The notes under the pieces are model-generated. The model was not told the DNA's origin and did not search any database. It worked only from the letters and a program-made list of their open reading frames with translations. From the NCBI GenBank assembly GCA_029547805.1, contig JAKPOP010000024.1, positions 1-64,000 of the forward strand: a stretch of 64,000 bases of DNA, read 5' to 3'. The translations under genes and the position numbers were made by a program. Positions 11,596-24,709 of this stretch are shown here, one piece after another; the first letter of the stretch is position 1, and each line of letters starts with the position of its first letter. This stretch comes from Deltaproteobacteria bacterium. GTDB taxonomy: Bacteria; Myxococcota_A; UBA9042; DTJE01.

Positions 11596-12579
11596 TCAGT
11601 CGCGGATGGCCTCCCGGATCACCGCAGGGTCCAGGCGGCAGACCCGGGACAGGCGCAAGGTGCCGATGCACACGCATCCATCGCAGGTCACCGGCCTCAA
11701 CGCCCGGAAGGACTCCTGGAACCCCAGGGTCCGGGCATCCACCCACTGGGGATGCCGGGCCTGCTCGCAGAAGGTCATCCGCCCGTCGGGCATCACGGTG
11801 GCCATCACCGGGGCACAGTCCGCCCTCCCCGGGCCGTTGCGGCAACGATTGGCATAGTACTCCAGTTCCCCCAGGGTGTTCTTGAGAGCCCGCCCCCTGG
11901 GGCCTCCCGCCTCCTTGATCCGGCGAAGCCATTGAAGGCCCGCCAGCAGGTCTTCCGGAGTCGGGGCAAAGTCCGCCGCCTCGGGTCGATCCGCCACCTG
12001 GGACATCGGCTGGAAACTCATGCGGCCCCCCAGGGCCGCGGCCTGGTCCAGCACCTCGTCGAGCCGGCGGATGTTCAACCGGGTCAGGACGCCCACAAAG
12101 TGGAACGGAATGCGCTCCCGACGGGCCAGTTCGGCGGCCCGGACCACGGCCCGGAAGGACCCGGGACCCCGGGCCTGGTCCTGGTCCTCCCCGGGGCCGT
12201 CCAGGGACAACTGCAGCAGATCGACGGTCCGGAGGTCGCGCACCCGGGCCTCCAGCAGGTGACCGTTCGAGTTGACCTTGCAGACCATGCCCCGCTGGTG
12301 GATGCGCCGGACAATCACCCCGAGGTCCGGGCGAATCAAGGGCTCTCCACCGGTGATGGACACGAGCCGGACGCCCCCCTCCGCCATCTGGTCCACCAGG
12401 GACAGGGCCTCCGCCGTGTCCATCTCCCCCAGGCCCCGGAGGTACGCGGCGTCGCAATAGCGGCAGTTCCGGTTGCAGCGCCCGGTGATCATCCAGGCCA
12501 CCGCCAGGGGGACAGGCCGGCCCGTGACCCGGTATTGCAGGACCGCAGCCGCGAGTCGAATCTTCTGCCGAACGTCCAC
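11596..12579 (-). CDS. Radical SAM protein with C-terminal cysteine cluster
   Basis: 327 residues. The N-terminal half has the radical SAM signature CNRNCRYC (Cys 35, 39, 42), which binds the cluster used to cleave S-adenosylmethionine, plus the SITGGEPL motif. The C-terminal part has spaced cysteines (ANRCRNG, ADCAPV, TFCEQA, TCDGCVC) like the SPASM/twitch domains that hold auxiliary clusters and modify peptides. The GTG at 12579 has AGGGGG five bases upstream; a GTG at 12600 is an alternative. No precursor peptide gene was recognised next to it. It could equally be a heme- or cofactor-linked enzyme; the substrate is unknown. Confidence 0.8.
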   Translation of the reverse strand: MDVRQKIRLAAAVLQYRVTGRPVPLAVAWMITGRCNRNCRYCDAAYLRGLGEMDTAEALSLVDQMAEGGVRLVSITGGEPLIRPDLGVIVRRIHQRGMVCKVNSNGHLLEARVRDLRTVDLLQLSLDGPGEDQDQARGPGSFRAVVRAAELARRERIPFHFVGVLTRLNIRRLDEVLDQAAALGGRMSFQPMSQVADRPEAADFAPTPEDLLAGLQWLRRIKEAGGPRGRALKNTLGELEYYANRCRNGPGRADCAPVMATVMPDGRMTFCEQARHPQWVDARTLGFQESFRALRPVTCDGCVCIGTLRLSRVCRLDPAVIREAIRD

Positions 12580-12783
12580 TCTGGCCCCCTGCGGTCGCAC
12601 CCCGCCGGGGAACGATACCGGATCCGGGGCTCCGCGTCGCCTGCACTCCCGGCGCGGGGATCCGTCGGGCTCGTCCCAACATGCGCCGGCGAACGAGCGC
12701 GGACCCCTGTCGGCAGAGGGGATTCCAGGCCAGGACGAGGGAACGGATCCGCCATCCGCCCCCGCCCCCCCGGACGACCATCC

Positions 12784-15096
12784 TCAGGGATCCTCCTCCA
12801 GAGGGGGCGGGGCGGCGAGGACCGCCTGGATGCGTTGCGACAGATCCCGGAGCAGAAACGGCTTCTGCAGCAACTCCACCCCGGGGTCCAGGATCCCTCG
12901 GTGGGCGACCCCGTTCGCCGTGTAGCCCGACATGAAGATCCGCCGGATCCCCGGACGGATCCGGGCCACCTCCCGGGCCAGTTGCCTCCCGTTCATCCCG
13001 GGCATCACCACGTCGGTCAGCAGCACATGCAACTCGCCTGGATGATTGCGGGCCGTCTCGATGGCCTGGACCGGATCGCCCACGGCCAGGACCCGGTACC
13101 CCAGGTGATCGAGCATTCGGGACACGACCGCGCGCACCAGATCGTCGTCCTCCACGAGCAGGATGGTCTGGCCATCCCGCACCGGCGCCCCCTCTCGGGG
13201 CCCCGACGCCTCCACAGGGGTCGCCTGCTCCTCCCAGCAGGGCAGGTAGACCCGGAACGTGCTGCCCATCCCGGGCTCGCTGTAGACGTGGATGAAGCCA
13301 TCGTTCTGTCGAACGATGCCATAGACCGTCGCGAGACCCAGGCCGACCCCGCTGCCCTGGGCCTTGGTCGTGAAGAAGGGTTCGAACAACCGCCGCCGGG
13401 TCGCCTCGTCCATGCCCCGCCCGTTGTCCGACACGACCAGCGCGGCGTAGGTCCCCGGGGAATGCTCCGGGTGATCGGCGCAGTAGGGCTCGTCGAAGAC
13501 GACCCGGGCCGTCTCGATGGTGATCCGACCGGCACCCTCGATGGCGTCCCGGGCGTTGGCGCAGAGGTTCACGAGGACCTGGTCCATCTGGGAGGGGTCG
13601 ATCCGGACCCTCCCGACGTCTTTCCCCGGGACCCAGTCCAGGGTGATGTTCTCGCCGATCAGGCGGCGGATCATCGCCATGCGACCCGACAGGACCTCGT
13701 TGAGGTCCACCACCCGGGGGGCGACGTTCTGTCGCCGGGCGAAGGCCAGCAACTGCCGGGTCAGGTCCGCCGACCGCTCCGCCGCCTCCCGGATCCGATG
13801 GAGGTCCTCCCGGATCGGGTCCTCCGGCCCCAGGCGGTTCAGGGCGACCTCGGCCACCCCCAGGATCACCGCCAGCATGTTGTTGAAGTCGTGGGCGACG
13901 CCCCCGGCCAGTTGCCCGATGGCCTCCAGTTTCCGGGCCTGGACCAGTTGCTCCGTGAGTCGCTCCCGGTCCTCCTCGGCCTTCCGCCGGGACGTGATGT
14001 CCATCGCCACCCCGATGGTGGCCTGGATGGATCCATCGGGGCCACGGACCGGGGTGTAGGCGACATCGAACCAGAGGGGACCCACGGACACCTCGACCTG
14101 GAACCGTTCCCCGGCCAGTGCCCGATGCAGCGACTGCACGATCTCGGGAAACTCGGAATAGACCTCGAAGGCGGACCGCCCGACGACCTCCCCGGGCCTC
14201 AGGCCGAGGGCCCCCAGTCCCCGGCCCTCCGAAAACTGGAAGACCCCGTCGGGTCCCAGGGCGAAAAAGACCAGGTCCACGTTCTCGATCACCGTCCGCA
14301 ACTGGTGTTCCCGCTCCCGGAGTTCCCGCTCGATGGCCTTTCGGGAGGTGATGTCGGTGTGGATCCCCACAAGGGCGGTCACGCGGCCCGCCAGATCCAG
14401 GTTCGCATGGGCCCGAAGCAGGATGTCCCGAATGCCGCCGTCCTTCGCATGCATCCGCACCTCGCCTTCCCACCGCCCGCCGGCCTTGATGGTCCGGAAG
14501 ACCTCCTCGGCCTGGGACCGATCCACGAAGAGGGCGGTCTTCGGGTCGTCGCCGCACTCGCCGAACAGGTCCGTGAAGGCCCGGTTCTGGTAGAAATGGC
14601 GCCCCTCGGGAGTGGCCATCCCGATGGCGTCGGTGGCGTTGTCCAACGACTCCTGGAACAGGGCCAGCCGGGATCGGGTGTCCCGTCGGTCCGAGACGTC
14701 CCGGACGATGGCCCAGTAGCCCTCCAACCGACCCTCGTCATCCCGGTTGGCATAGGTCCGGACCTCCACGGGCACCCGGGTCCCGTCGCGACGGACGTAC
14801 TCCTTTTCGTAGAGGTCCGAAAACCCCCGGCGATCCACCTGTTCCTCCAGGATCGCCTGCTCCGGGGCCCGCCACTCCGGGGGCGTGAGGTCCTGCCATC
14901 GCAGGCGCCGGACCTCCTCCATGGCGTAGCCTCCCAGGAGGTCCAGGAACGCGGGGTTGCACGCGACGAAGAACCCCTCCCGATCCACCGATGCGACCCC
15001 GTCCCGGAGGTGATGCAACAGGCCCTGGAACAGGTCCGGCACGAGCCGTACCCCCGGTCCCCCGCCGGTCCTGGGCGACACGTCGTGATCCTCCAT
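12784..15096 (-). CDS. Hybrid sensor histidine kinase with three PAS domains and a receiver
   Basis: 770 residues, no membrane segment, so a cytoplasmic sensor. Domains in order: PAS about 22-140, PAS 148-265, PAS 275-395, dimerisation/phosphoacceptor about 400-470 with the H-box [14 protein letters not shown]-binding domain about 490-620 ([25 protein letters not shown]), and a receiver about 643-770 with [17 protein letters not shown] and the Lys of LLQKPF. The receiver probably accepts phosphate from the same chain or passes it on. GGGAGGAGGGG stands directly before ATG 15096. It is divergent from argR, but nothing ties it to arginine control. Ligand and output are unknown. Confidence 0.92.
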
Positions 15097-15394: not shown

Positions 15395-15853
15395 ATGCCT
15401 CGGAAGGATACCCGAAGAGAAGAACGCCTCCAGGCCATCCGGGGCCTGGTCCGGCGGCGTCGCATCCCGGACCAGGGAGCCCTCTGCGCCCTGCTCCGGG
15501 ACCGGGGATTCCAGGTGACCCAGGCCAGCGTCTCCCGGGACCTCCGGTTCCTGGCCATCCGCAAGATCGACGGGTGCTACCGGGAGGCCACGCCCCTCCC
15601 TCCGGTGGGCCAGGCCCCCGAGGTCCTGGGCCGGATCCTGGGAGTGGGCGCCGCGGGTCCCCACCTGCTGGTGGTCCGGACCCCTCCGGGGCAGGCCTCG
15701 GCGGTGGGCATCGCGCTGGATCAGGCGGCCTGGCCGGGCATGGTGGGGTGCGTGGCCGGGGACGACACGGTGATGGTGGCCGTGGAGGGATCTGAAGCGC
15801 AGGCCCGGATCCGGGAACGGCTGGAGCGGTTCCAGGACAGGGAGGAGAGATGA
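15395..15853 (+). CDS. argR: Arginine repressor
   Basis: 152 residues, the standard ArgR length. The N-terminal winged helix (about 5-70) shows RDRGFQVTQASVSRDLRFL, the DNA-recognition segment of the family. The C-terminal half (about 85-150) has the arginine-binding, hexamer-forming pattern with GQASAVGIALDQ and AGDDTVMVAV. It is the first gene of the arginine operon, placed directly behind a candidate operator, so it probably represses itself and the downstream genes when arginine binds. Its TGA overlaps the ATG of argG. ATG 15395 was chosen because it starts the family's usual N-terminus; the ribosome site is weak. Confidence 0.92.
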   Translation: MPRKDTRREERLQAIRGLVRRRRIPDQGALCALLRDRGFQVTQASVSRDLRFLAIRKIDGCYREATPLPPVGQAPEVLGRILGVGAAGPHLLVVRTPPGQASAVGIALDQAAWPGMVGCVAGDDTVMVAVEGSEAQARIRERLERFQDREER

Positions 15854-17091
15854 GCGGACCGGTGGTGGTGGCCTTCAGCGGGGGGCTCGACACGTCGTTC
15901 CTGGTGCCGTATCTGGCCGAGAGGCTCGGCCGGCCCGTGATCACGGTCACGGTGGACACGGGTGGACTGTCCGAGGAGGCCCGGGAGGACCTGTCCCGAC
16001 GGTCCCGGGCACTGGGCGCCGTCGCACACCGGACCGTGGAGGCCAGGCCCGCCTTCTTCCAGGAGACCCTGCGGTTCCTGATCTACGGCAATGTGCGCCG
16101 GGGTCATGTCTATCCGCTGTGCGTCGGGGCCGAGCGGACCCTCCAGGCCCGCAAGGTGGCGGAGGTGGCCCGGGAGGTCGGGGCCTCGGCCGTCGCCCAC
16201 GGGAGCACCGCCGCGGGCAACGACCAGGTCCGCTTCGAGGTGGCCCTCCGGGTGCTGGCCCCGGGCGTGGAGGTCCTGGCCCCGATCCGGGACGAGGGGT
16301 TCACCCGGGCCCAGGAGACGGCCTTCCTGAGGGAACGGGGACACGAGGTCTCGGAGGAACGGGCGGCCTATTCCATCAACCGGGGCCTCTGGGGCTGCAC
16401 GATCGGGGGCCGGGAGACGCTGGACACGGTGGACCCCCTCCCGGAGGAGGCCTGGGTCCTGACCCGAGGCGCCTTCGACGACCTGAGGCCCCCACTGGAG
16501 GTGCGGATCGGCTTCCGGGAAGGCGTTCCAACCAGCCTCGACAGGAAGGAGATGGACCCGGTGCCCCTGATCGAGGCCCTGGACGCCCTGGCCGCCCCTC
16601 GAGGCATCGGTCGGGGCATCCATCTGGGGGACACGATCTTCGGCCTGAAGGGACGGGTGGCCTTCGAGGCCCCGGCCGCCACGGTGATCCTGGAGGCGCA
16701 CCGGGAACTGGAGAAACTGGTGCTGACGGCCCGACAGCAGCGCCTGAAGGACCAGGTGGCGGCCCTCTATGGGGACTGGGTCCACGAGGCCCTGGCCCTG
16801 GAACCGGCCTGCCGGGACGCAGAGGCCCTGCTGCAGTCGTCCCAGGACCGGGTCACCGGGGAGGTCCGGATGCGGATGTGGGCCGGACGGATGGAGGTCC
16901 TGGGGGTGTCGTCGCCCTTCTCCCTGAAGGCGGCTTCCTCAGGGACCTACGGGGAGGCGGCCGGGGAGTGGACCGGTGCCGATGCGAGGGGATTCGCCCG
17001 GATGCTGGCCATCCCGGCCATGCTCCACGCCCGGGCAGGAACCGCCGCCGGAGCGACCGGCGGGTCGGAACGAGGAGGTGAGGCGCCGTGA
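15850..17091 (+). CDS. argG: Argininosuccinate synthase
   Basis: Joins citrulline and aspartate using ATP to make argininosuccinate, the seventh step of arginine synthesis. 413 residues, typical for the family. The N-terminal PP-loop AFSGGLDTS (residues 9-17) binds ATP; GNDQVRFE and YSINRGLWG are family signatures. ATG 15850 overlaps the argR stop (ATGA), so translation is coupled. The end (about 395-413) is a loose Ala/Gly tail running into the next gene, whose GTG start overlaps this stop. Confidence 0.95.
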   Translation: MSGPVVVAFSGGLDTSFLVPYLAERLGRPVITVTVDTGGLSEEAREDLSRRSRALGAVAHRTVEARPAFFQETLRFLIYGNVRRGHVYPLCVGAERTLQARKVAEVAREVGASAVAHGSTAAGNDQVRFEVALRVLAPGVEVLAPIRDEGFTRAQETAFLRERGHEVSEERAAYSINRGLWGCTIGGRETLDTVDPLPEEAWVLTRGAFDDLRPPLEVRIGFREGVPTSLDRKEMDPVPLIEALDALAAPRGIGRGIHLGDTIFGLKGRVAFEAPAATVILEAHRELEKLVLTARQQRLKDQVAALYGDWVHEALALEPACRDAEALLQSSQDRVTGEVRMRMWAGRMEVLGVSSPFSLKAASSGTYGEAAGEWTGADARGFARMLAIPAMLHARAGTAAGATGGSERGGEAP

Positions 17092-18137
17092 AGGTCCTCT
17101 CCCTGGACAAGATCGCGTCGGTCACGATGAACTGCCGGCTGCCCCGGGAGGTCCGCCTGATCCCGGAGGTGGTCGCCGAGGAGGGCAGCGTCGTCGCGGT
17201 CCGGGTGCTGAGTTCCAAGAGTTCCTACAACACCCTGGAACTCCCCTCGGGGCGCTTCAGCAAGATCCGCCCCGGGGACATCCTGGCAGTGGCCCTGGGG
17301 CACCGGAAGGCCCTCTTCGGATTCGCGGGCCGGGTGCCGTCGGAGGTCCGGGTGGGAGACCACCTGCACCTGCTGAACCTCGGGGGCGTCCTGGGACTCT
17401 GCGAGAGCGCGAACCCCGACTTCGGACAGCCCTTCGTCTGCGAGGTCCTGGGACAGGTGCTCCACTTCCCCTATCTCGAACAGCGAATCGGAGTGCCCGC
17501 CCACATCCGCCAGGGGGCCATCCCGGTCCGGGATCGGCTGGAGGTCCGGGGGATCCCCGTGGTCGCCGTGGTGGGCAGCAGCATGAACGCCGGGAAGACG
17601 GCTGCGGCCTGTTCCTTGATCCAGGCCTTTCGTCATCGGGGCCTGGCGGTGGGGGCCGCGAAGACCACGGGGGTCTCCCTGCGGCGGGACATCCTGGGGA
17701 TGGAGGACGCCGGGGCCCGGGACGTCCGGATCTTCACGGACCTGGGCATCGTCACGACGACGCCCGAGACGGCCCCGGTGGCCGCCCGAACCCTGCTGTC
17801 CGAACTGGCCGAGGGTCGCCCGGACGTGCTGGTGCTGGAACTGGGGGACGGCCTGTTGGGCCTCTACGGGGTCGATGCGATCCTCGACGACCCGGACCTT
17901 CGGGGGTCCTTCCGGGCCGTCGTGCTGGCCGCCAGCGATCCGGTGGCGGCCTGGGGCGGCGTGCGACTGCTCCGGGACCAGCACGGCATCGAGACGGACG
18001 TGGTGACGGGGCCCGCGACGGACAACGATGCGGGGTCGGTGCTCGTGGAGCGCCGGACCGGGGTGCCAGGACACAATGCCCGGACCGACGGGGAGGGGCT
18101 CGCGAACCGGGTGCTGCAGCGGATCGGAATCGCCTGA
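17088..18137 (+). CDS. P-loop protein of unknown function inside the arginine operon
   Basis: 349 residues, soluble. Residues 1-150 are probably a beta-rich domain with LSSKSSYNTLELPSGRFSKI and ALGHRKALFGFAG. A Walker A loop GSSMNAGKT (163-171) begins a MobB/dethiobiotin-synthetase-like P-loop domain with AAKTTGVSLRRD and a Walker-B-like VLVLELGDG (about 245). It distantly recalls the DUF1611/DgcN group, but I cannot confirm that. GTG 17088 overlaps the argG stop (GTGA), and argC follows 23 bp later. So it is expressed with the pathway and is probably needed for it. The operon holds all steps except glutamate N-acetylation, which makes that step one possible role; NTP-dependent regulation or ligation are others. 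Family unrecognised. Confidence 0.8.
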   Translation: MKVLSLDKIASVTMNCRLPREVRLIPEVVAEEGSVVAVRVLSSKSSYNTLELPSGRFSKIRPGDILAVALGHRKALFGFAGRVPSEVRVGDHLHLLNLGGVLGLCESANPDFGQPFVCEVLGQVLHFPYLEQRIGVPAHIRQGAIPVRDRLEVRGIPVVAVVGSSMNAGKTAAACSLIQAFRHRGLAVGAAKTTGVSLRRDILGMEDAGARDVRIFTDLGIVTTTPETAPVAARTLLSELAEGRPDVLVLELGDGLLGLYGVDAILDDPDLRGSFRAVVLAASDPVAAWGGVRLLRDQHGIETDVVTGPATDNDAGSVLVERRTGVPGHNARTDGEGLANRVLQRIGIA

Positions 18138-18160: not shown

Positions 18161-19243
18161 ATGACGGAACGACCGGTTCGGGACCCAGGACCCACGCTGG
18201 TGCTGGGAGGCAGCGGATACGTGGCCGGGGAATGCCTGCGCCTGCTGGCGGGCCATCCGGTCTTCCGGGAGGTGGTGCCGGTGACCACGAGCCGGGCCGG
18301 AGACCCGGTCGGCAGGGTCTTCCCGCACCTCGAGGCCACCGACCTGGGGTCCGTGGCCTTCCGGTCCCTGGAGGAGGCGCTGGCCGCGGTGCCCGACGGC
18401 GGCCGGGTCTCGGTCCTGACCGCGACGCCTCACGGGGCGACGGCACCGCTGGTCGATCGCCTCATGACCGAGGCGGATCAGCGAGACCTGGACCTCCGAG
18501 TCGTGGACCTGTCCGCGGATTTCCGATTCCGGGATGCGGCCCGCTATCGCGCCCTCTACGGCCAGGACCACGGGGCCCCCCATCGCCTGGAGTCCTTCCG
18601 CTGCGGCATCCCCGAGTGGACCCCGGGACCCGCCGGGCGGTTCATGGCCCATCCCGGGTGCTTCACGACCGCGGCGGTGCTGGCGGCGGCCCCCTTCTGG
18701 AAGGCCGGCGTGGTGGAGCCGGAGGTCTTCGTGTCGGCGGTCACGGGGTCCTCGGGCAGCGGGCGACAGCCGGGACCTGACACCCATCATCCCGAGCGGC
18801 GATCGAACCTCCGGGCCTACTCCCCCCTGGGCCATCGCCACGAGGCCGAGATGGCCGCATTGCTCGGGGCCCTGGCGGCAGGAACGGAACCGGAGGTGGC
18901 CTTCGTGCCCCACTCGGGGCCCTTCGTCCGGGGCATCCACGCCACGCTGCACCTGCGCCTCACGAAACCCCTGGACACCCGGCAGGCCCGGGACCTGGCC
19001 CGGGAGTGCTATGCCGACGCCCCGCTCGTCTCGGTCCGGGACGACCCCCCGCGACTGGTGGAGGTCGTCGGGACCTGCCGGGCCGCCCTGGGAGTCTTCG
19101 TGCGAAACCGGACCCTGGTGGTCACCTCGGTGCTGGACAATCTGGCCAAAGGGGCCGCCGGTGGGGGAATCCAGTGGCTCAACCGCCTGCACGGGCTGCC
19201 CGACGACCTGGGTCTCCGGCAGCCGGGGATTGGCTGGTGTTGA
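18161..19243 (+). CDS. argC: N-acetyl-gamma-glutamyl-phosphate reductase
   Basis: NADPH-dependent reduction of N-acetylglutamyl phosphate to the semialdehyde. 360 residues. The Rossmann loop is LGGSGYVAGECLRLLAGHP (about 13-31). The catalytic cysteine lies in HPGCFTTA (about 165-172). VTGSSGSGRQPGPDTHHPER and GHRHEAEM follow the ArgC/LysY pattern. ATG 18161 has GGGAGAGG upstream. It sits between the unknown P-loop protein and argD, 14 bp from the latter. A LysW-carrier version is unlikely because no LysW gene is nearby. Confidence 0.93.
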   Translation: MTERPVRDPGPTLVLGGSGYVAGECLRLLAGHPVFREVVPVTTSRAGDPVGRVFPHLEATDLGSVAFRSLEEALAAVPDGGRVSVLTATPHGATAPLVDRLMTEADQRDLDLRVVDLSADFRFRDAARYRALYGQDHGAPHRLESFRCGIPEWTPGPAGRFMAHPGCFTTAAVLAAAPFWKAGVVEPEVFVSAVTGSSGSGRQPGPDTHHPERRSNLRAYSPLGHRHEAEMAALLGALAAGTEPEVAFVPHSGPFVRGIHATLHLRLTKPLDTRQARDLARECYADAPLVSVRDDPPRLVEVVGTCRAALGVFVRNRTLVVTSVLDNLAKGAAGGGIQWLNRLHGLPDDLGLRQPGIGWC

Positions 19244-19256
19244 TGGGGGGAACGGG

Positions 19257-20405
19257 ATGAGCACGAATGGGAGCGACGCCCTGCTGGAGGTCTTCTCCCA
19301 GGTGCCGCTGCGGTTCTGTCGGGGTCAGGGAAGCCGCCTCTGGACGGAGGACGGCCGGGAGTTCGTGGACTTCTACGGCGGCCACGCCGTGGCCCTGCTG
19401 GGCCACGGCCATCCGGCGGTGGTCCAGGCCATTGGGGACCAGGCCTCCCGGTTGATCTTCCAGAGCAACCTGTTCCCCCTGGAGGTCCGGGAGGAGGCCG
19501 CCCGGGACCTGCGGGCCTTCGCGGGCCTGTCGTCCCACCGGGTCTTCTTCGTGAACTCCGGGGCCGAGGCCAATGAGAACGCCCTGCGGATCGCCCTCCG
19601 GGCCACCGGGCGTTCCACGGTCGTGCGCATGGAGGGTTCCTTTCATGGCCGGACGGCGGCCGCCGCGGCGGTCACCGAAGGGGCCCGGGAGAAGTGGTAC
19701 GGCTTCCCGAACACCCCCTTCCCCGTGCGCCGGGTGGCCCTGGAGGACCTCGGGGGCCTGGAGCGGGCCATCGACCAGGACACCGCGGCCGTGATCCTGG
19801 AGCCGGTCCAGGGGGTCGCCGGGGCCCGGGACCTCTCTGCGACGTTCCTCCGGGCCGCACGGGACCTGACCCGAAGACACGGGGCGCTGCTGATCGCCGA
19901 CGAGGTGCAGTGCGGCATGGGGCGCTGCGGCGTCCCCTTTGTGAGCGTGGATCTGGGGCTGGATCCGGACCTGCTCACCGTGGGCAAGGGCCTCGCCGGC
20001 GGACTTCCCGGCGCCGCGGTGCTGGTATCGGAGGCCCTGGCCCGGGGCCTGCGGCCCGGGGACCTGGGGACCACGTTCGGCGGAGGGCCGGTGGTCTGCG
20101 CAGCCATCCGGGCGGTGATCCGGGCCATCGAGCAGGATCACCTGCTGGAACGGGTGCAGCGACTCTCGGCGCGCATCGACGCCGAGTGTCGCCGGGGACC
20201 GGTCCTGGGGGTCCAGGGACAGGGATTCCTGAAAGGACTGCGCACCAGGCGGCCAGCCTCTGAGGTCCTGGCGGGGCTCCGGGAGCGGGGCATCCTGGCC
20301 GGCGGCAGCGGGGACCCCCAGGTGGTCCGGCTGCTGCCGCCCCTGGTGCTGGACGACGCCGACGTCGATCGCCTGCGGGATGCCCTGGAGGAGATGGAAT
20401 CATGA
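19257..20405 (+). CDS. argD: Acetylornithine aminotransferase
   Basis: PLP enzyme that makes N-acetylornithine from the semialdehyde with glutamate as amino donor. 382 residues. Class III aminotransferase marks are VNSGAEANENALRIA (about 99-113), EGSFHGRTAAA, ADEVQCGMGR (Asp that contacts PLP) and the Schiff-base Lys in TVGKGLAGG (about 242). ATG 19257 has a GGGGGG ribosome site. Its stop overlaps the next start (ATGA). C-terminal segments are shorter than usual, but the motif set is complete. Confidence 0.93.
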   Translation: MSTNGSDALLEVFSQVPLRFCRGQGSRLWTEDGREFVDFYGGHAVALLGHGHPAVVQAIGDQASRLIFQSNLFPLEVREEAARDLRAFAGLSSHRVFFVNSGAEANENALRIALRATGRSTVVRMEGSFHGRTAAAAAVTEGAREKWYGFPNTPFPVRRVALEDLGGLERAIDQDTAAVILEPVQGVAGARDLSATFLRAARDLTRRHGALLIADEVQCGMGRCGVPFVSVDLGLDPDLLTVGKGLAGGLPGAAVLVSEALARGLRPGDLGTTFGGGPVVCAAIRAVIRAIEQDHLLERVQRLSARIDAECRRGPVLGVQGQGFLKGLRTRRPASEVLAGLRERGILAGGSGDPQVVRLLPPLVLDDADVDRLRDALEEMES

Positions 20406-21409
20406 GACGCTTCCTGGACCTCGAGGACCTCGATGACCAGCGACTGGAACGGGTGCTGGACCGAGCCCGGGACCTGCGGCTACACCCGGTCGGGCAGGGG
20501 CTGGCTGGACGCACGGTGGGTCTGCTCTTCCTGAACCCCTCGGTCCGGACCCTGGCATCGATGCAGGCCGCCGTGACCCAGCAGGGGGGGCAGGTCTTCG
20601 TGATCACCCCCGGCGCCGGGTCCTGGGTGATGGAGACCCGGGACGGGGCCGTGATGGACGGGCCCGCGGCGGAACATGTCCGGGAGGCGATCCCGGTCCT
20701 GGCAGAATACGCCGACCTGCTGGCGGTGCGCTGCTTTGCCCGGGGGGAGGACCTGGCCGAGGACCTCGCCGACGACCTGATCCGAAAGATGGCGGACCTG
20801 TGCCCGAAGCCCTTCATCAACCTGGAGTCGGCGTCGGCCCATCCCTGCCAGGCCCTGGGGGACTGGCGGACCCTGGAGGACCTGGAGGTGCCCCGGAACG
20901 GGCGGCTGGTCCTGTCCTGGGCCTGGCACCCGAAGCCGCTGCCCTACGCGGTGCCCGCGTCCACGCTGCGAATGGCGGCCCGGCGGGGCATGGAGGTGAC
21001 CGTGCTCCATCCGCCGGGCTACGAGCTGCCCCCCTCGGTGATGGAGGAGGCCCGGGCCCTGGCGGCACGGTCCGGCGGCACGGTTCGGGAGACGGTGGAC
21101 CGCCGGGAGGCGATGGAGGGGGCCCATGTCCTCTACGGAAAGTCCTGGGCCGCACCATCGTGCTACGGCGACCCGGAGGCCGACCAGAGGATGCGGGCGC
21201 CACTGCGGCAGGAGTGGTGCATCCGGGAATCCTGGTTCGCGAATTCCCGGCCCGAGGCCCGCTTCCTGCATTGCCTGCCGGTGCGCCGAAACGTGAAGGT
21301 GGCCGACGAGGTCCTGGACGGACCCCGGAGCGCGGTGGTGCACCAGGCGGGGAACCGCCTGCACGCCCAGAAGGCCCTGTTGCTGGAGATGCTGGGAGGA
21401 TGTCGATGA
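20402..21409 (+). CDS. N-acetylornithine (or N-succinylornithine) carbamoyltransferase
   Basis: 335 residues, carbamoyltransferase fold. The carbamoyl-phosphate loop reads LNPSVRTLASMQ (about 43-54), where ordinary ornithine enzymes have a KPSTRT-type loop. HPCQALGDW is conserved. The acceptor-binding end reads HCLPVRRNVKVADEV, as in acetylornithine carbamoyltransferases, instead of HCLPxHRG. The product would therefore be N-acetylcitrulline, which fits an argE later in the operon and the absence of argJ. Acetyl and succinyl versions cannot be separated by eye. Carbamoyl phosphate would come from carAB at 54.9-59.3 kb. Overlaps argD and argB by stop/start. Confidence 0.87.
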   Translation: MRRFLDLEDLDDQRLERVLDRARDLRLHPVGQGLAGRTVGLLFLNPSVRTLASMQAAVTQQGGQVFVITPGAGSWVMETRDGAVMDGPAAEHVREAIPVLAEYADLLAVRCFARGEDLAEDLADDLIRKMADLCPKPFINLESASAHPCQALGDWRTLEDLEVPRNGRLVLSWAWHPKPLPYAVPASTLRMAARRGMEVTVLHPPGYELPPSVMEEARALAARSGGTVRETVDRREAMEGAHVLYGKSWAAPSCYGDPEADQRMRAPLRQEWCIRESWFANSRPEARFLHCLPVRRNVKVADEVLDGPRSAVVHQAGNRLHAQKALLLEMLGGCR

Positions 21410-22356
21410 ACCGTGCCCTGGAACCGGATGCCGAGATCGCAGGTCTGCGGAGGGCCCTTCCCTACCTCCGTCTCTACCGGGGAAGGACCTTCATCGTGAA
21501 GGTCGGCGGGGAGGCCGCCGAGGACCCGGGGGTCGTCCAGGAGGTCGCCGAGCAGATCGGCGTGCTCCGAGAACTGGGGATCAAGGTCGTGCTGGTCCAC
21601 GGCGCCGGGCCTCAGGCCACGATGGTGGCCCGGCGACTGGGAATCGAGACGTCCTTCGTGGCCGGGCGACGGGTCACCTCCCGGGAGACCCTGGAGGCGG
21701 TCACGATGGCCCTGGTCGGGACCGTCGCGACGGCCTGGATGGCCGCGTTCCGAAAGTTGGAGGTGCCGGCCCTGGGCTTCTCGGGGATCTCGTCGGGGGT
21801 CCTCCGGGCCCGAAAGCGGCCCCCGGTGGAGGTGGAGGAGGCCGGGGAACGCCAGACCGTGGACTACGGCCAGGTGGGAGACCTGCGGTCCGTGGACCCG
21901 GCACCCCTGTTCCGGCTGCTGGAGACGGGCTTCGTCCCCGTGATGTCCCCCCTGGCGGCCGACGACCAGGGCCAGGTACTGAACATCAACGCCGACACCG
22001 TCGCCGCGAAGGTGGCCGAGGCCCTGGGTGCCGAGAAGCTGATCTTCCTGACCGGGGCCCCGGGCCTGCTGGAGGACCTGGCGGACCCGTCCTCGGTGGT
22101 GTCGGTGGCGGACCTCGAGGGGATCCGACAGCGGGTGGCCGACGGGACGATCCGGGGGGGCATGCTCCCGAAGGTCCAGGCGGCCTCCGAGGCCCTGCAG
22201 CGGGGCGTCCGGCGGGTGCACATCGTGGGCCACGGGCAGCCGCTGGGCCTGCTGCGGGAGGTCTTCACGAACGCCGGAGCCGGCACCCTGCTGGTCCGGA
22301 GCCTGGCCGAACTGATGCCCGAGGAGGGGGCCGCCGGCCCCGGGGGGGCCCCGTGA
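21406..22356 (+). CDS. argB: Acetylglutamate kinase
   Basis: Phosphorylates N-acetylglutamate with ATP. 316 residues, slightly longer than usual because of a loose C-terminal tail. Amino acid kinase motifs are FIVKVGGEAA (about 27-36), LVHGAGPQATM (about 62-72) and NINADTVAAKVA (about 193-204). I chose ATG 21406, which overlaps the upstream stop (ATGA) and lies six bases after GGGAGGA. The ATG at 21400 touches that ribosome site directly and is less likely. No N-terminal helix of the arginine-sensitive type is evident, so feedback control is uncertain. Confidence 0.94.
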   Translation: MNRALEPDAEIAGLRRALPYLRLYRGRTFIVKVGGEAAEDPGVVQEVAEQIGVLRELGIKVVLVHGAGPQATMVARRLGIETSFVAGRRVTSRETLEAVTMALVGTVATAWMAAFRKLEVPALGFSGISSGVLRARKRPPVEVEEAGERQTVDYGQVGDLRSVDPAPLFRLLETGFVPVMSPLAADDQGQVLNINADTVAAKVAEALGAEKLIFLTGAPGLLEDLADPSSVVSVADLEGIRQRVADGTIRGGMLPKVQAASEALQRGVRRVHIVGHGQPLGLLREVFTNAGAGTLLVRSLAELMPEEGAAGPGGAP

Positions 22357-23444
22357 ACGACAGGGACCTGCTGGAGTTCCACCGGCGGCTGGTGGCCACC
22401 CGGTCCGTCTCGGCGGAGGAGACGGCGGCGCTGGAGTATGTCGGGGGCGTGCTGGCCCACGGAGGCCTGGAGACCAGGATGGTCCCCCGGGGGGGCATCC
22501 TGGCCCTGCTGGGAACCGACGGCCCGGTCATGGTCTGGAACACCCATCTGGACACGGTCCCTCCGGTCCCGGGATGGACCGGGGACCCCTGGACGCCCCG
22601 GGTTGCCGATGGCCGGGTCGTGGGCCTCGGGGCCAACGACGCGAAGGCCTCCGTCGCGGCGATGGTCGGGGCCCTGCTGCGCATCGCCCGGGGACCCGGT
22701 TCCCTGCCGGGCATCCGACTCGCCCTGGCCCTGGCCGTCGAGGAGGAGACCACCGGACAGGGCAGCCGGACGCTGCGGCAGGCCCTGGATCAGGCGGGAT
22801 GGACTCCAGCGGCCGTGCTGATCGGGGAACCCACAGGCATGGAGCCGGCGGTGTCCCAGAAGGGCCTGGCGGTACTCCGGGTCGTCACCACCGGCGATGC
22901 CTGCCATGCGGCCCACGCCCGGGCCCTGGGGGCCAGGAACGCCATCCGGGAACTGGCCCGGGTGATCGCAGCGATGCCCGACACGCTGCCCGGTGCCGAC
23001 GACCCGGACCTCGGCCCCGTCACCGTGGAGCCGACCCAGATCCAGGGTGGGACGGCCCGCAACGTGGTTCCCGGGGAGGCGTCGTGCTATCTGGACGTCC
23101 GGACCAACCCCGGCCTCGATGCCCCGGAGGTGGCCCGTCGGTTGTCCCAGGACCTGGGCTGCGAGGTCCAGGTCCACAGCGGACGCTTCGTCCCCTGCCA
23201 CACGGATCCTGGCGACCCCCTGGTGCAGGCGGTGCTCCAGGCGGTCCCCGGGTCCCGGCCCTTCGCCTCCCGGGGGGTGTCGGACTGGGTGGCCTTCCGG
23301 GACGTCCCGGCGGTCAAGATCGGTCCCGGACGCACCGAGCGGTCCCACACCGCCGACGAGTTCGTGCTGGAGGAAGAGGTGCTGCACGGGGCCCGGTCCT
23401 ACCAGGCGATTGCCGAGGCCTGGGCCCGGGAGGTGTCCCGATGA
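22353..23444 (+). CDS. argE: Acetylcitrulline/acetylornithine deacetylase (M20 family)
   Basis: Removes the acetyl group late in the pathway; given the carbamoyltransferase above, N-acetylcitrulline is the likely substrate. 363 residues. The two-metal M20 site is visible: NTHLDTVPP (His and Asp), GANDAKASVAAM (bridging Asp), AVEEETTGQGS (catalytic Glu pair), LIGEPTGME and the late His of TERSHTADEF. GTG 22353 overlaps the argB stop; its own stop overlaps the ATG of argH. The lid domain lies at about 175-285. LysK or DapE relatives are possible by family, but context settles the assignment. Confidence 0.9.
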   Translation: MNDRDLLEFHRRLVATRSVSAEETAALEYVGGVLAHGGLETRMVPRGGILALLGTDGPVMVWNTHLDTVPPVPGWTGDPWTPRVADGRVVGLGANDAKASVAAMVGALLRIARGPGSLPGIRLALALAVEEETTGQGSRTLRQALDQAGWTPAAVLIGEPTGMEPAVSQKGLAVLRVVTTGDACHAAHARALGARNAIRELARVIAAMPDTLPGADDPDLGPVTVEPTQIQGGTARNVVPGEASCYLDVRTNPGLDAPEVARRLSQDLGCEVQVHSGRFVPCHTDPGDPLVQAVLQAVPGSRPFASRGVSDWVAFRDVPAVKIGPGRTERSHTADEFVLEEEVLHGARSYQAIAEAWAREVSR

Positions 23445-24709
23445 GCCGGCTCTGGGACGCAGGGGGAGACCTGGACCCGGAGGTCCTGCAGTACACCGCC
23501 GGGGACGACCCGGTCCTGGACCGCGAACTGATGCCCTGGGACATCCGGGCGACCCGGGCCCATGCCCGGATGCTCCGGTCCCTGGGCCATCTCTCGGAGG
23601 ACGAGTGGGTCGCCCTGGACGGGGCGCTGCAGGAAGCCCTCCGGGACTTCCAGGACGGGACCTGGGACATCACCCCCGAGGACGAGGACGGCCATACGGC
23701 CCTGGAGAACCGGCTGGTGGCCCGGATCGGCGATCCCGGCAAGGCGGTGCACCTGGGGCGTTCCCGGAACGATCAGGTCCTGGCGGCCCTGCGCCTCTGG
23801 CTGATGGACCGCCTGGAGGCCCTGGGACAGGCAGCCGACCAGGTCGCCGAGGCCCTGGAGGAGTGGGGCGCCCGCCAGGGTCCGGTGCCCATGCCCGGCT
23901 ATACCCACGGCCAGCGGGCGATGCCCCAGGACGTCGCCCTGTGGACCGGCGGCTGGGCCGCCGAGGTCCGGGACGATGCCGAGGCGATCCGGCTCGCCCG
24001 GCGGCGGGCCGCCCAAAATCCCCTCGGGAGCGCAGCAGGTTACGGGGTCCCGGGCCTGCCGCTGGACCGGGAGATGACGACCCGGGAACTGGGCTTCGAC
24101 CGGCCCCAGGAACCGGTGACGGCCGTGCAGATCTCCCGGGGGAAGGCCGAGGCCGAGGCGCTGTTCCAGGCGACGCTGCTGGCCCGGGACCTCGGGCGTC
24201 TGGCCGGAGAGGTCTGCCTGTTCGCCACGGCGGAGTACGGCTTCCTCCGGCTCCCGGAGGACCTCACCACCGGGTCCTCGATGATGCCCCAGAAGCGCAA
24301 CCCCGACGTCTTCGAGCGCGTCCGGGGCCGGGCCGCCGAGGCCCTGGCCGCCCTCCAGGAGGTCCTGATGATTGCCTGGGGCCTCCCCTCGGGCTACCAC
24401 CGGGACCTCCAGGGGATCAAGGCCCCCCTCTTCCGGGGCCTCCACGGGGTCCTGGCCAGCGCCCGGGTGATGGCCCGCGTGATCCCCCGCCTGTCCTTCG
24501 ACGAGGACCGTCTCCGGGAGGCCGCCGCCGACCCGGCCCTCCAGGCCACCGCCCGGGTCCTCGACCTGGTCCGCACCCAGGGCCTTCCCTTCCGGGAGGC
24601 CTACCGGCGGGTCAAAGGGGGACAGTCACCGATTGATCGGTCGCAACCTCCCGGTGGTCCTGCAGAAACCCCAACAGAACCGACCCCCGGGAAGGACCCG
24701 TCGGTCTGA
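23441..24709 (+). CDS. argH: Argininosuccinate lyase with an altered C-terminus
   Basis: Splits argininosuccinate to arginine and fumarate; last gene of the operon. 422 residues. Family signatures are HLGRSRNDQVLAALRLW (about 104-120), PGYTHGQRAMP (about 149-159), and TGSSMMPQKRNPD (about 282-294) with the catalytic Ser loop. Homology appears to stop at LPFREAYRRV (about 390). The remaining 31 residues are polar and Pro-rich and are encoded by a repeat-like hairpin sequence (24614-24641). The usual family end has a further 30-60 ordered residues here. The catalytic residues are before the break, so activity is plausible but should be treated as unproven. Confidence 0.9.
   Translation: MSRLWDAGGDLDPEVLQYTAGDDPVLDRELMPWDIRATRAHARMLRSLGHLSEDEWVALDGALQEALRDFQDGTWDITPEDEDGHTALENRLVARIGDPGKAVHLGRSRNDQVLAALRLWLMDRLEALGQAADQVAEALEEWGARQGPVPMPGYTHGQRAMPQDVALWTGGWAAEVRDDAEAIRLARRRAAQNPLGSAAGYGVPGLPLDREMTTRELGFDRPQEPVTAVQISRGKAEAEALFQATLLARDLGRLAGEVCLFATAEYGFLRLPEDLTTGSSMMPQKRNPDVFERVRGRAAEALAALQEVLMIAWGLPSGYHRDLQGIKAPLFRGLHGVLASARVMARVIPRLSFDEDRLREAAADPALQATARVLDLVRTQGLPFREAYRRVKGGQSPIDRSQPPGGPAETPTEPTPGKDPSV
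24614..24641 (+). repeat. REP-like hairpin inside the end of argH
   Basis: The G-rich head GGGGGACAGTCACC (24617-24630) runs into a perfect 6-bp dyad, ACCGAT (24628-24633) and ATCGGT (24636-24641), with a 2-base centre. Short repeats with a GGGGACAGTCACC core are, from memory, dispersed in many genomes near single-strand transposases. Only one copy was found here by eye. Confidence 0.4.

Follow-up and report, generated by a model that had tools for sequence, protein, structure and literature searches.

A P-loop protein encoded within an arginine operon is a candidate non-GNAT N-acylglutamate synthase

The window, by which we mean the entire 64,000-nucleotide stretch of DNA analyzed here, contains an operon with the gene order argR-argG-PLP-argC-argD-carbamoyltransferase-argB-argE-argH. 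All of these genes lie on the plus strand and are overlapping or closely spaced. The operon begins with the arginine repressor gene argR (15395..15853; TIGR01529, E = 2.7e-25, 89 bits, below the curated cut-off), which shares ATGA with argG (argininosuccinate synthase; 15850..17091; TIGR00032, 281.7 bits, cut-off 268.2). PLP, the name used here for a P-loop protein of 349 amino acids, starts with GTG and occupies positions 17088..18137. The GTGA at 17088–17091 is common to the argG stop and the PLP start, and 23 bp separate PLP from argC, which starts at 18161 (N-acyl-gamma-glutamyl-phosphate reductase; 18161..19243; TIGR01850, 272 bits, cut-off 233.6). These genes are followed by argD (N-acylornithine transaminase; 19257..20405; NF002874, 337 bits, and TIGR00707, 322 bits, both below the curated cut-offs), an N-acylornithine carbamoyltransferase gene (20402..21409; NF003384, 364 bits, cut-off 288), and argB (21406..22356; TIGR00761, 214 bits), which encodes an N-acylglutamate kinase of 316 amino acids that Pfam recognizes as AA_kinase only, without a GNAT fusion. 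The last two genes encode an ArgE/DapE-like M20 deacylase (22353..23444; PRK07522, 7.5e-41, and DapE-ArgE, 8e-38, both below cut-off) and the argininosuccinate lyase ArgH (23441..24709; TIGR00838, 285 bits, cut-off 279.5). Supported by NCBIfam, with matches below the curated cut-offs for ArgR, ArgD, and ArgE, the operon encodes a complete set of arginine enzymes apart from one for the N-acylation of glutamate. The coordinates agree with the preliminary description, which had noted a 349-residue P-loop reading frame in mid-operon, overlapping argG by GTGA and separated from argC by 23 bp. Its list of enzymes (ArgB, ArgC, ArgD, ArgE, ArgG, ArgH, and a carbamoyltransferase) also stands; its naming of the last as an acetylornithine enzyme calls for revision, given the alanine at the specificity residue discussed below. 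On the minus strand, the window also encodes a PAS-domain hybrid histidine kinase (12784..15096) and, downstream of it, a radical-SAM-like protein (11596..12600) with a CxxxCxxC motif recognized by eye, for which an NCBIfam match at 1e-25 was not found. Neither has a link to the arginine operon.

PLP matched no profile above any cut-off in Pfam, NCBIfam, or PHROGs. A scan of genome contigs recovered at least 59 relatives of PLP. Those listed are labeled Myxococcota, Planctomycetota, Acidobacteriota, Gammaproteobacteria, and Armatimonadetes and are 47–94% identical, except for four from Rhodobacteraceae at ~33%. Because homologs with 47–94% identity occur in several phyla, we consider the PLP gene to be real. 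An alignment of 29 sequences revealed more than 60 invariant residues, including G163, M166, G169, K170, T171, K192, T194, G195, D201, and E251 as well as GDG at 253–255 and TDN at 311–313. The Walker A motif (GSSMNAGKT; 17574..17600) falls at residues 163–171, where it had been placed initially, and its residues G163, M166, G169, K170, and T171 are also common to paralog subfamilies.

Two such subfamilies were observed. PLP2 paralogs, which are ~33% identical to PLP, lie outside arginine operons (L057–L060, L141–L143, L154) in Rhodobacteraceae, on a Paracoccus plasmid, and in some genomes of this phylum. Their modules include an alpha/beta-hydrolase-like protein and, in most loci, an ABC transporter; an Asp/Asn hydroxylase-like gene is found near PLP2 in Rhodobacteraceae. 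PLP3 paralogs adjoin an M20 peptidase and a flavin-reductase-like protein (L140, 6811–9590; L144) in genomes that use ArgJ or have PLP elsewhere. All 10 genomes with only weak, paralog-type matches to PLP contain ArgJ, and a plasmid search for PLP returned a single distant paralog. It is tempting to speculate that the occurrence of this P-loop family together with hydrolases or deacylases may reflect acylation chemistry in general.

The structure of PLP predicted by AlphaFold2 from the alignment (pLDDT 94.6, pTM 0.91) comprises a beta-rich N-terminal domain (residues 1–153; 17088..17546) and a SIMIBI-type P-loop domain. Foldseek returned partial matches in the PDB to SRP54/FtsY, dethiobiotin synthetase, and HypB (TM ~0.4 of the query). 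When modeled alone (pLDDT 91), residues 1–153 had no PDB match in Foldseek (best E 0.46). The invariant K192, which lies in a KxTG(V) motif (17661..17675), aligns with Lys37 of dethiobiotin synthetase, a catalytic residue of that enzyme. A whole-length match to the dethiobiotin synthetase family was not found (33–93 residues align, E 0.02–0.05), and the gene lies in an arginine operon rather than in a biotin context.

PLP had been described initially as a distant relative of the MobB/DUF1611 group, a membership that our comparisons do not support. PLP scores 18.3 bits with the DUF1611/DgcN profile PF07755 (Pfam gathering threshold 25), for which the best E-value among 29 members is 0.0013, and 19.6 bits with the MobB profile PF03205 (gathering threshold 26.6). 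Alignment of PLP to a true DUF1611 protein (L070) by hhalign gave a probability of 6% over 36 columns. GSSMNAGKT of PLP lines up with GTDMAIGKM of that protein, whose PDB relatives 2obn, 7xrj, and 2g0t do not appear among the 50 best structural hits for PLP. The N-terminal domain of DUF1611 proteins is of the Rossmann type, whereas residues 1–153 of PLP are beta-rich and not Rossmann-like in the model and have no DUF1611_N match in Pfam. With the exception of DgcN, which is distantly similar and presumably a DUF1611 member, we know of no acyltransferase with the exact fold of PLP. DgcN is a D-glutamate N-acetyltransferase (EC 2.3.1.312; PMC11747546).

We found no recognizable enzyme for the first step of the pathway in the window genome (4.08 Mb, 96.7% complete), which extends to the whole genome the earlier remark that the operon is accompanied by neither a GNAT-type N-acetylglutamate synthase (NAGS) nor ArgJ. 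Genome-wide, there is no ArgJ and no NAT/DUF619 domain; no ArgA match exceeds the cut-off, and the ArgA model matches ArgB only. The genome encodes at least nine GNATs with PF00583, one of which is RimI, and none of the nine is assigned to a NAGS family. GNATs found with the PF00583 profile were compared among three genomes (9 proteins from the window genome, 11 from Geothrix, and 10 from an Armatimonadota genome); the RimI-like GNAT was the only likely ortholog common to all three, and other matches were weak. No named NAGS was present among the GNATs scanned in Geothrix fermentans (9/15). Holophagaceae other than Acidiparvus have been reported to lack NAGS in a study of freshwater Acidobacteriota (PMC11561045). 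A GNAT gene past argH (L009, L010) was rejected as the missing NAGS because it lies ~240–300 bp beyond argH, beside polA, and is absent from L013; apparent fusions of ArgB to GNAT or of PLP to argG in long reading frames (L005, L010, L052) reflect high-GC read-through or a different frame.

The distribution of PLP ties it to the arginine pathway. Homologs were sought by protein similarity rather than by context, and in 61 PLP loci from several phyla argC is directly downstream in each of the 57 loci that hold it and argG directly upstream in each of the 55 that hold that gene. We surveyed 379 genomes of the phylum and identified strong PLP matches in 66, AOTC-family enzymes above the cut-off in 94, strong NAT matches in 28, and ArgJ in 211. 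The ArgJ survey covers the genomes of this phylum. Of the 94 genomes that encode an AOTC-family enzyme, 61 contain PLP, 23 contain an ArgB-NAT fusion, none contains both, and 10 contain neither; conversely, 61 of the 66 PLP genomes encode an AOTC-family enzyme. PLP and NAT also replace one another inside families (G100 among NAT-bearing members of f19; G211, G266, and G294 versus G251 in f48). PLP and ArgJ occur together in 4/66 genomes (p ~1e-20 with relatedness ignored, which inflates p-values). The expectation that PLP occurs where GNAT-type NAGS and ArgJ are missing was borne out among the 379 genomes.

Two of the four genomes with both PLP and ArgJ (G267, G310, G319, and G346) have an estimated contamination of 6%. 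G319 carries a PLP-type arginine operon and, on another contig, ArgJ (L137, L153), and genomes of the same genus contain ArgJ only; this combination could result from horizontal transfer or a mixed assembly. Among the 10 genomes with neither PLP nor NAT, G189 carries part of PLP at the edge of a contig, the sequence of G165 stops at the expected site of PLP, and G244, G275, and G287 are 73–79% complete. The other five (G120, G164, G173, G215, and G238) have no clear assembly reason. In G069, G340, and G346, PLP adjoins argC-argD-argB in a cluster without an AOTC-family gene, and G069 and G340 have no ArgJ match either. This arrangement indicates that PLP goes together with the part of the pathway that handles acylated intermediates.

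The carbamoyltransferase provides an indication of which acyl group is used. The acyl-specificity residue of the X. campestris AOTC is Glu92. Alignment confirmed this position and placed Ala90 of the window enzyme (codon 20669..20671) opposite it. The best PDB match of the window enzyme, 3l02, likewise has Ala at the specificity residue, and 3l04, 3l05, and 3l06 have Pro, Ser, and Val. According to a passage in PMC7311316 that cites Shi et al., S, P, A, or V at this position leads to a preference for N-succinylcitrulline. Among 85 PLP-linked carbamoyltransferases, the residue is A in 60, P in 11, V in 9, S in 3, T in 1, and E in 1; thus, 84/85 are non-Glu and 83/85 have A, V, P, or S. The sole Glu belongs to an additional copy, not near PLP, in G070, a genome with two AOTC-family carbamoyltransferases (L186, G070:C178; L187, G070:C22), one carrying Glu and the other Pro. 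In contrast, all 22 readable NAT-linked enzymes have Glu (Fisher p 6e-22 versus PLP-linked enzymes, with relatedness ignored). Because its residue is Ala and published mutants of this kind favor N-succinyl substrates, the window operon is, as judged from sequence, probably succinyl-type, and its carbamoyltransferase probably N-succinyl-specific. The missing step, initially taken to be N-acetylation, is accordingly better described as N-acylation, probably N-succinylation. The residue split indicates an association of PLP with a succinyl-type pathway and of the GNAT fusion with an acetyl-type pathway. It follows that the exclusion between PLP and ArgB-GNAT may reflect differing pathways and is by itself no proof that PLP is the catalyst.

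The position of PLP in mid-operon and its near-exclusion from known first-step enzymes suggest that it is probably a new glutamate-capping enzyme. From this context we infer that PLP is itself the catalyst, and we favor, as the most probable reading, a non-GNAT N-acylglutamate synthase that most likely produces N-succinylglutamate. PLP would cap the amino group of L-glutamate, most likely with succinyl, and the N-acylglutamate would then feed ArgB, ArgC, ArgD, the carbamoyltransferase, and the ArgE-like deacylase, all encoded next to PLP. Two proposed chemistries fit the data. The acyl group may be transferred from succinyl-CoA, with the phosphates of CoA held at the P-loop, a mode of binding that could also apply to the P-loop protein DgcN. 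Alternatively, succinate may be ligated in an ATP-dependent reaction through an acyl phosphate, with Lys170 and Lys192 used as in dethiobiotin synthetase. We rank the former slightly above the latter. It is conceivable, if doubtful, that PLP ligates succinate to glutamate at the expense of ATP in the manner of dethiobiotin synthetase, possibly reusing succinate released by the deacylase. It would then be an N-acylglutamate-forming enzyme distinct from both GNATs and ArgJ and would define an N-succinyl arginine pathway in several phyla outside Bacteroidetes. Against a synthase stand the four genomes with PLP and ArgJ and the five unexplained AOTC-family genomes without PLP or NAT; in addition, a novel type of GNAT, beyond those found with PF00583 in the three genomes compared, may be encoded elsewhere in the genome.

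Other roles for PLP would leave more of these observations unaccounted for. Were PLP an NTP-driven regulator or partner, such as a PII-like controller of ArgB, an unrecognized acyltransferase elsewhere would make the acylglutamate. The P-loop fold with its intact Walker A motif, the frequent coupling of regulators in operons, and the presence of at least nine GNATs in the window genome are consistent with this role, which the preliminary description had offered as an alternative. However, ArgR already heads the operon, a regulator does not account for the rarity of PLP alongside ArgJ or its complete absence alongside ArgB-NAT, and among the GNATs scanned none is named as NAGS and the RimI-like protein alone is common to three genomes. 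We consider a regulator possible but unlikely. A glutamate N-acetyltransferase in an acetylated pathway, the L-glutamate analogue of DgcN suggested initially, seems improbable to us. The NCBIfam name of the carbamoyltransferase, assigned above cut-off, is of the N-acetylornithine type, and the enzyme is closer overall to AOTC (224 bits) than to SOTC (178 bits); nevertheless, the residue in PLP operons is mostly Ala, Pro, Val, or Ser, as in the AOTC E92 mutants described in that passage as succinyl-preferring, every GNAT-linked enzyme examined has Glu, and the relation to DUF1611 is below every threshold. A helper of the carbamoyltransferase or of carbamoyl phosphate handling could account for the co-occurrence of PLP with AOTC-family enzymes and for the PLP genes beside the carbamoyltransferase in L068 and L069. 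This role is very improbable, as PLP stays with argC-argD-argB in the three genomes whose clusters lack a carbamoyltransferase and is missing from the 23 AOTC-family genomes with ArgB-NAT.

If PLP is a P-loop synthase, it fills the first-step gap in several phyla and extends the succinylated arginine pathway beyond Bacteroidetes; many "acetylornithine carbamoyltransferases" would need renaming, and the SIMIBI fold would acquire a new chemistry. Known routes for the first step are ArgA, ArgB-NAT, short NAGS, ArgH-linked GNATs, and ArgJ, and ArgA2 (GNAT) and ArgA3 (deacetylase-like) have been proposed in addition (PMC1382215, PMC9026213). None of these alternatives is a P-loop protein. ArgA2/BT3761 of Bacteroidetes has the same proposed step in an N-succinyl pathway (PMC7311316, PMC9026213); however, it is a GNAT N-succinylglutamate synthase, whereas PLP is a two-domain P-loop protein in which Pfam and NCBIfam detect no GNAT domain. 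ArgA, the Xanthomonas-type ArgB-NAT, and short NAGS also fill the first step, and ArgB-NAT takes the place of PLP in AOTC-family genomes, but all three are GNATs and the carbamoyltransferase that accompanies ArgB-NAT is acetyl-type (Glu). The ornithine acetyltransferase ArgJ is an alternative source of N-acetylglutamate that belongs to an unrelated family and is nearly exclusive with PLP. BioD and other SIMIBI NTPases share with PLP the C-terminal fold (Foldseek E ~1e-6), the Walker A motif, and the lysine aligned with Lys37, but BioD lacks the N-terminal beta domain, identity is ~15%, and the pathway is another one. DUF1611 proteins and DgcN share the P-loop motif GTxMxxGKxT, and DgcN acylates glutamate; its substrate is D-glutamate, however, and the DUF1611 N-terminal domain differs from the beta-rich domain of PLP.
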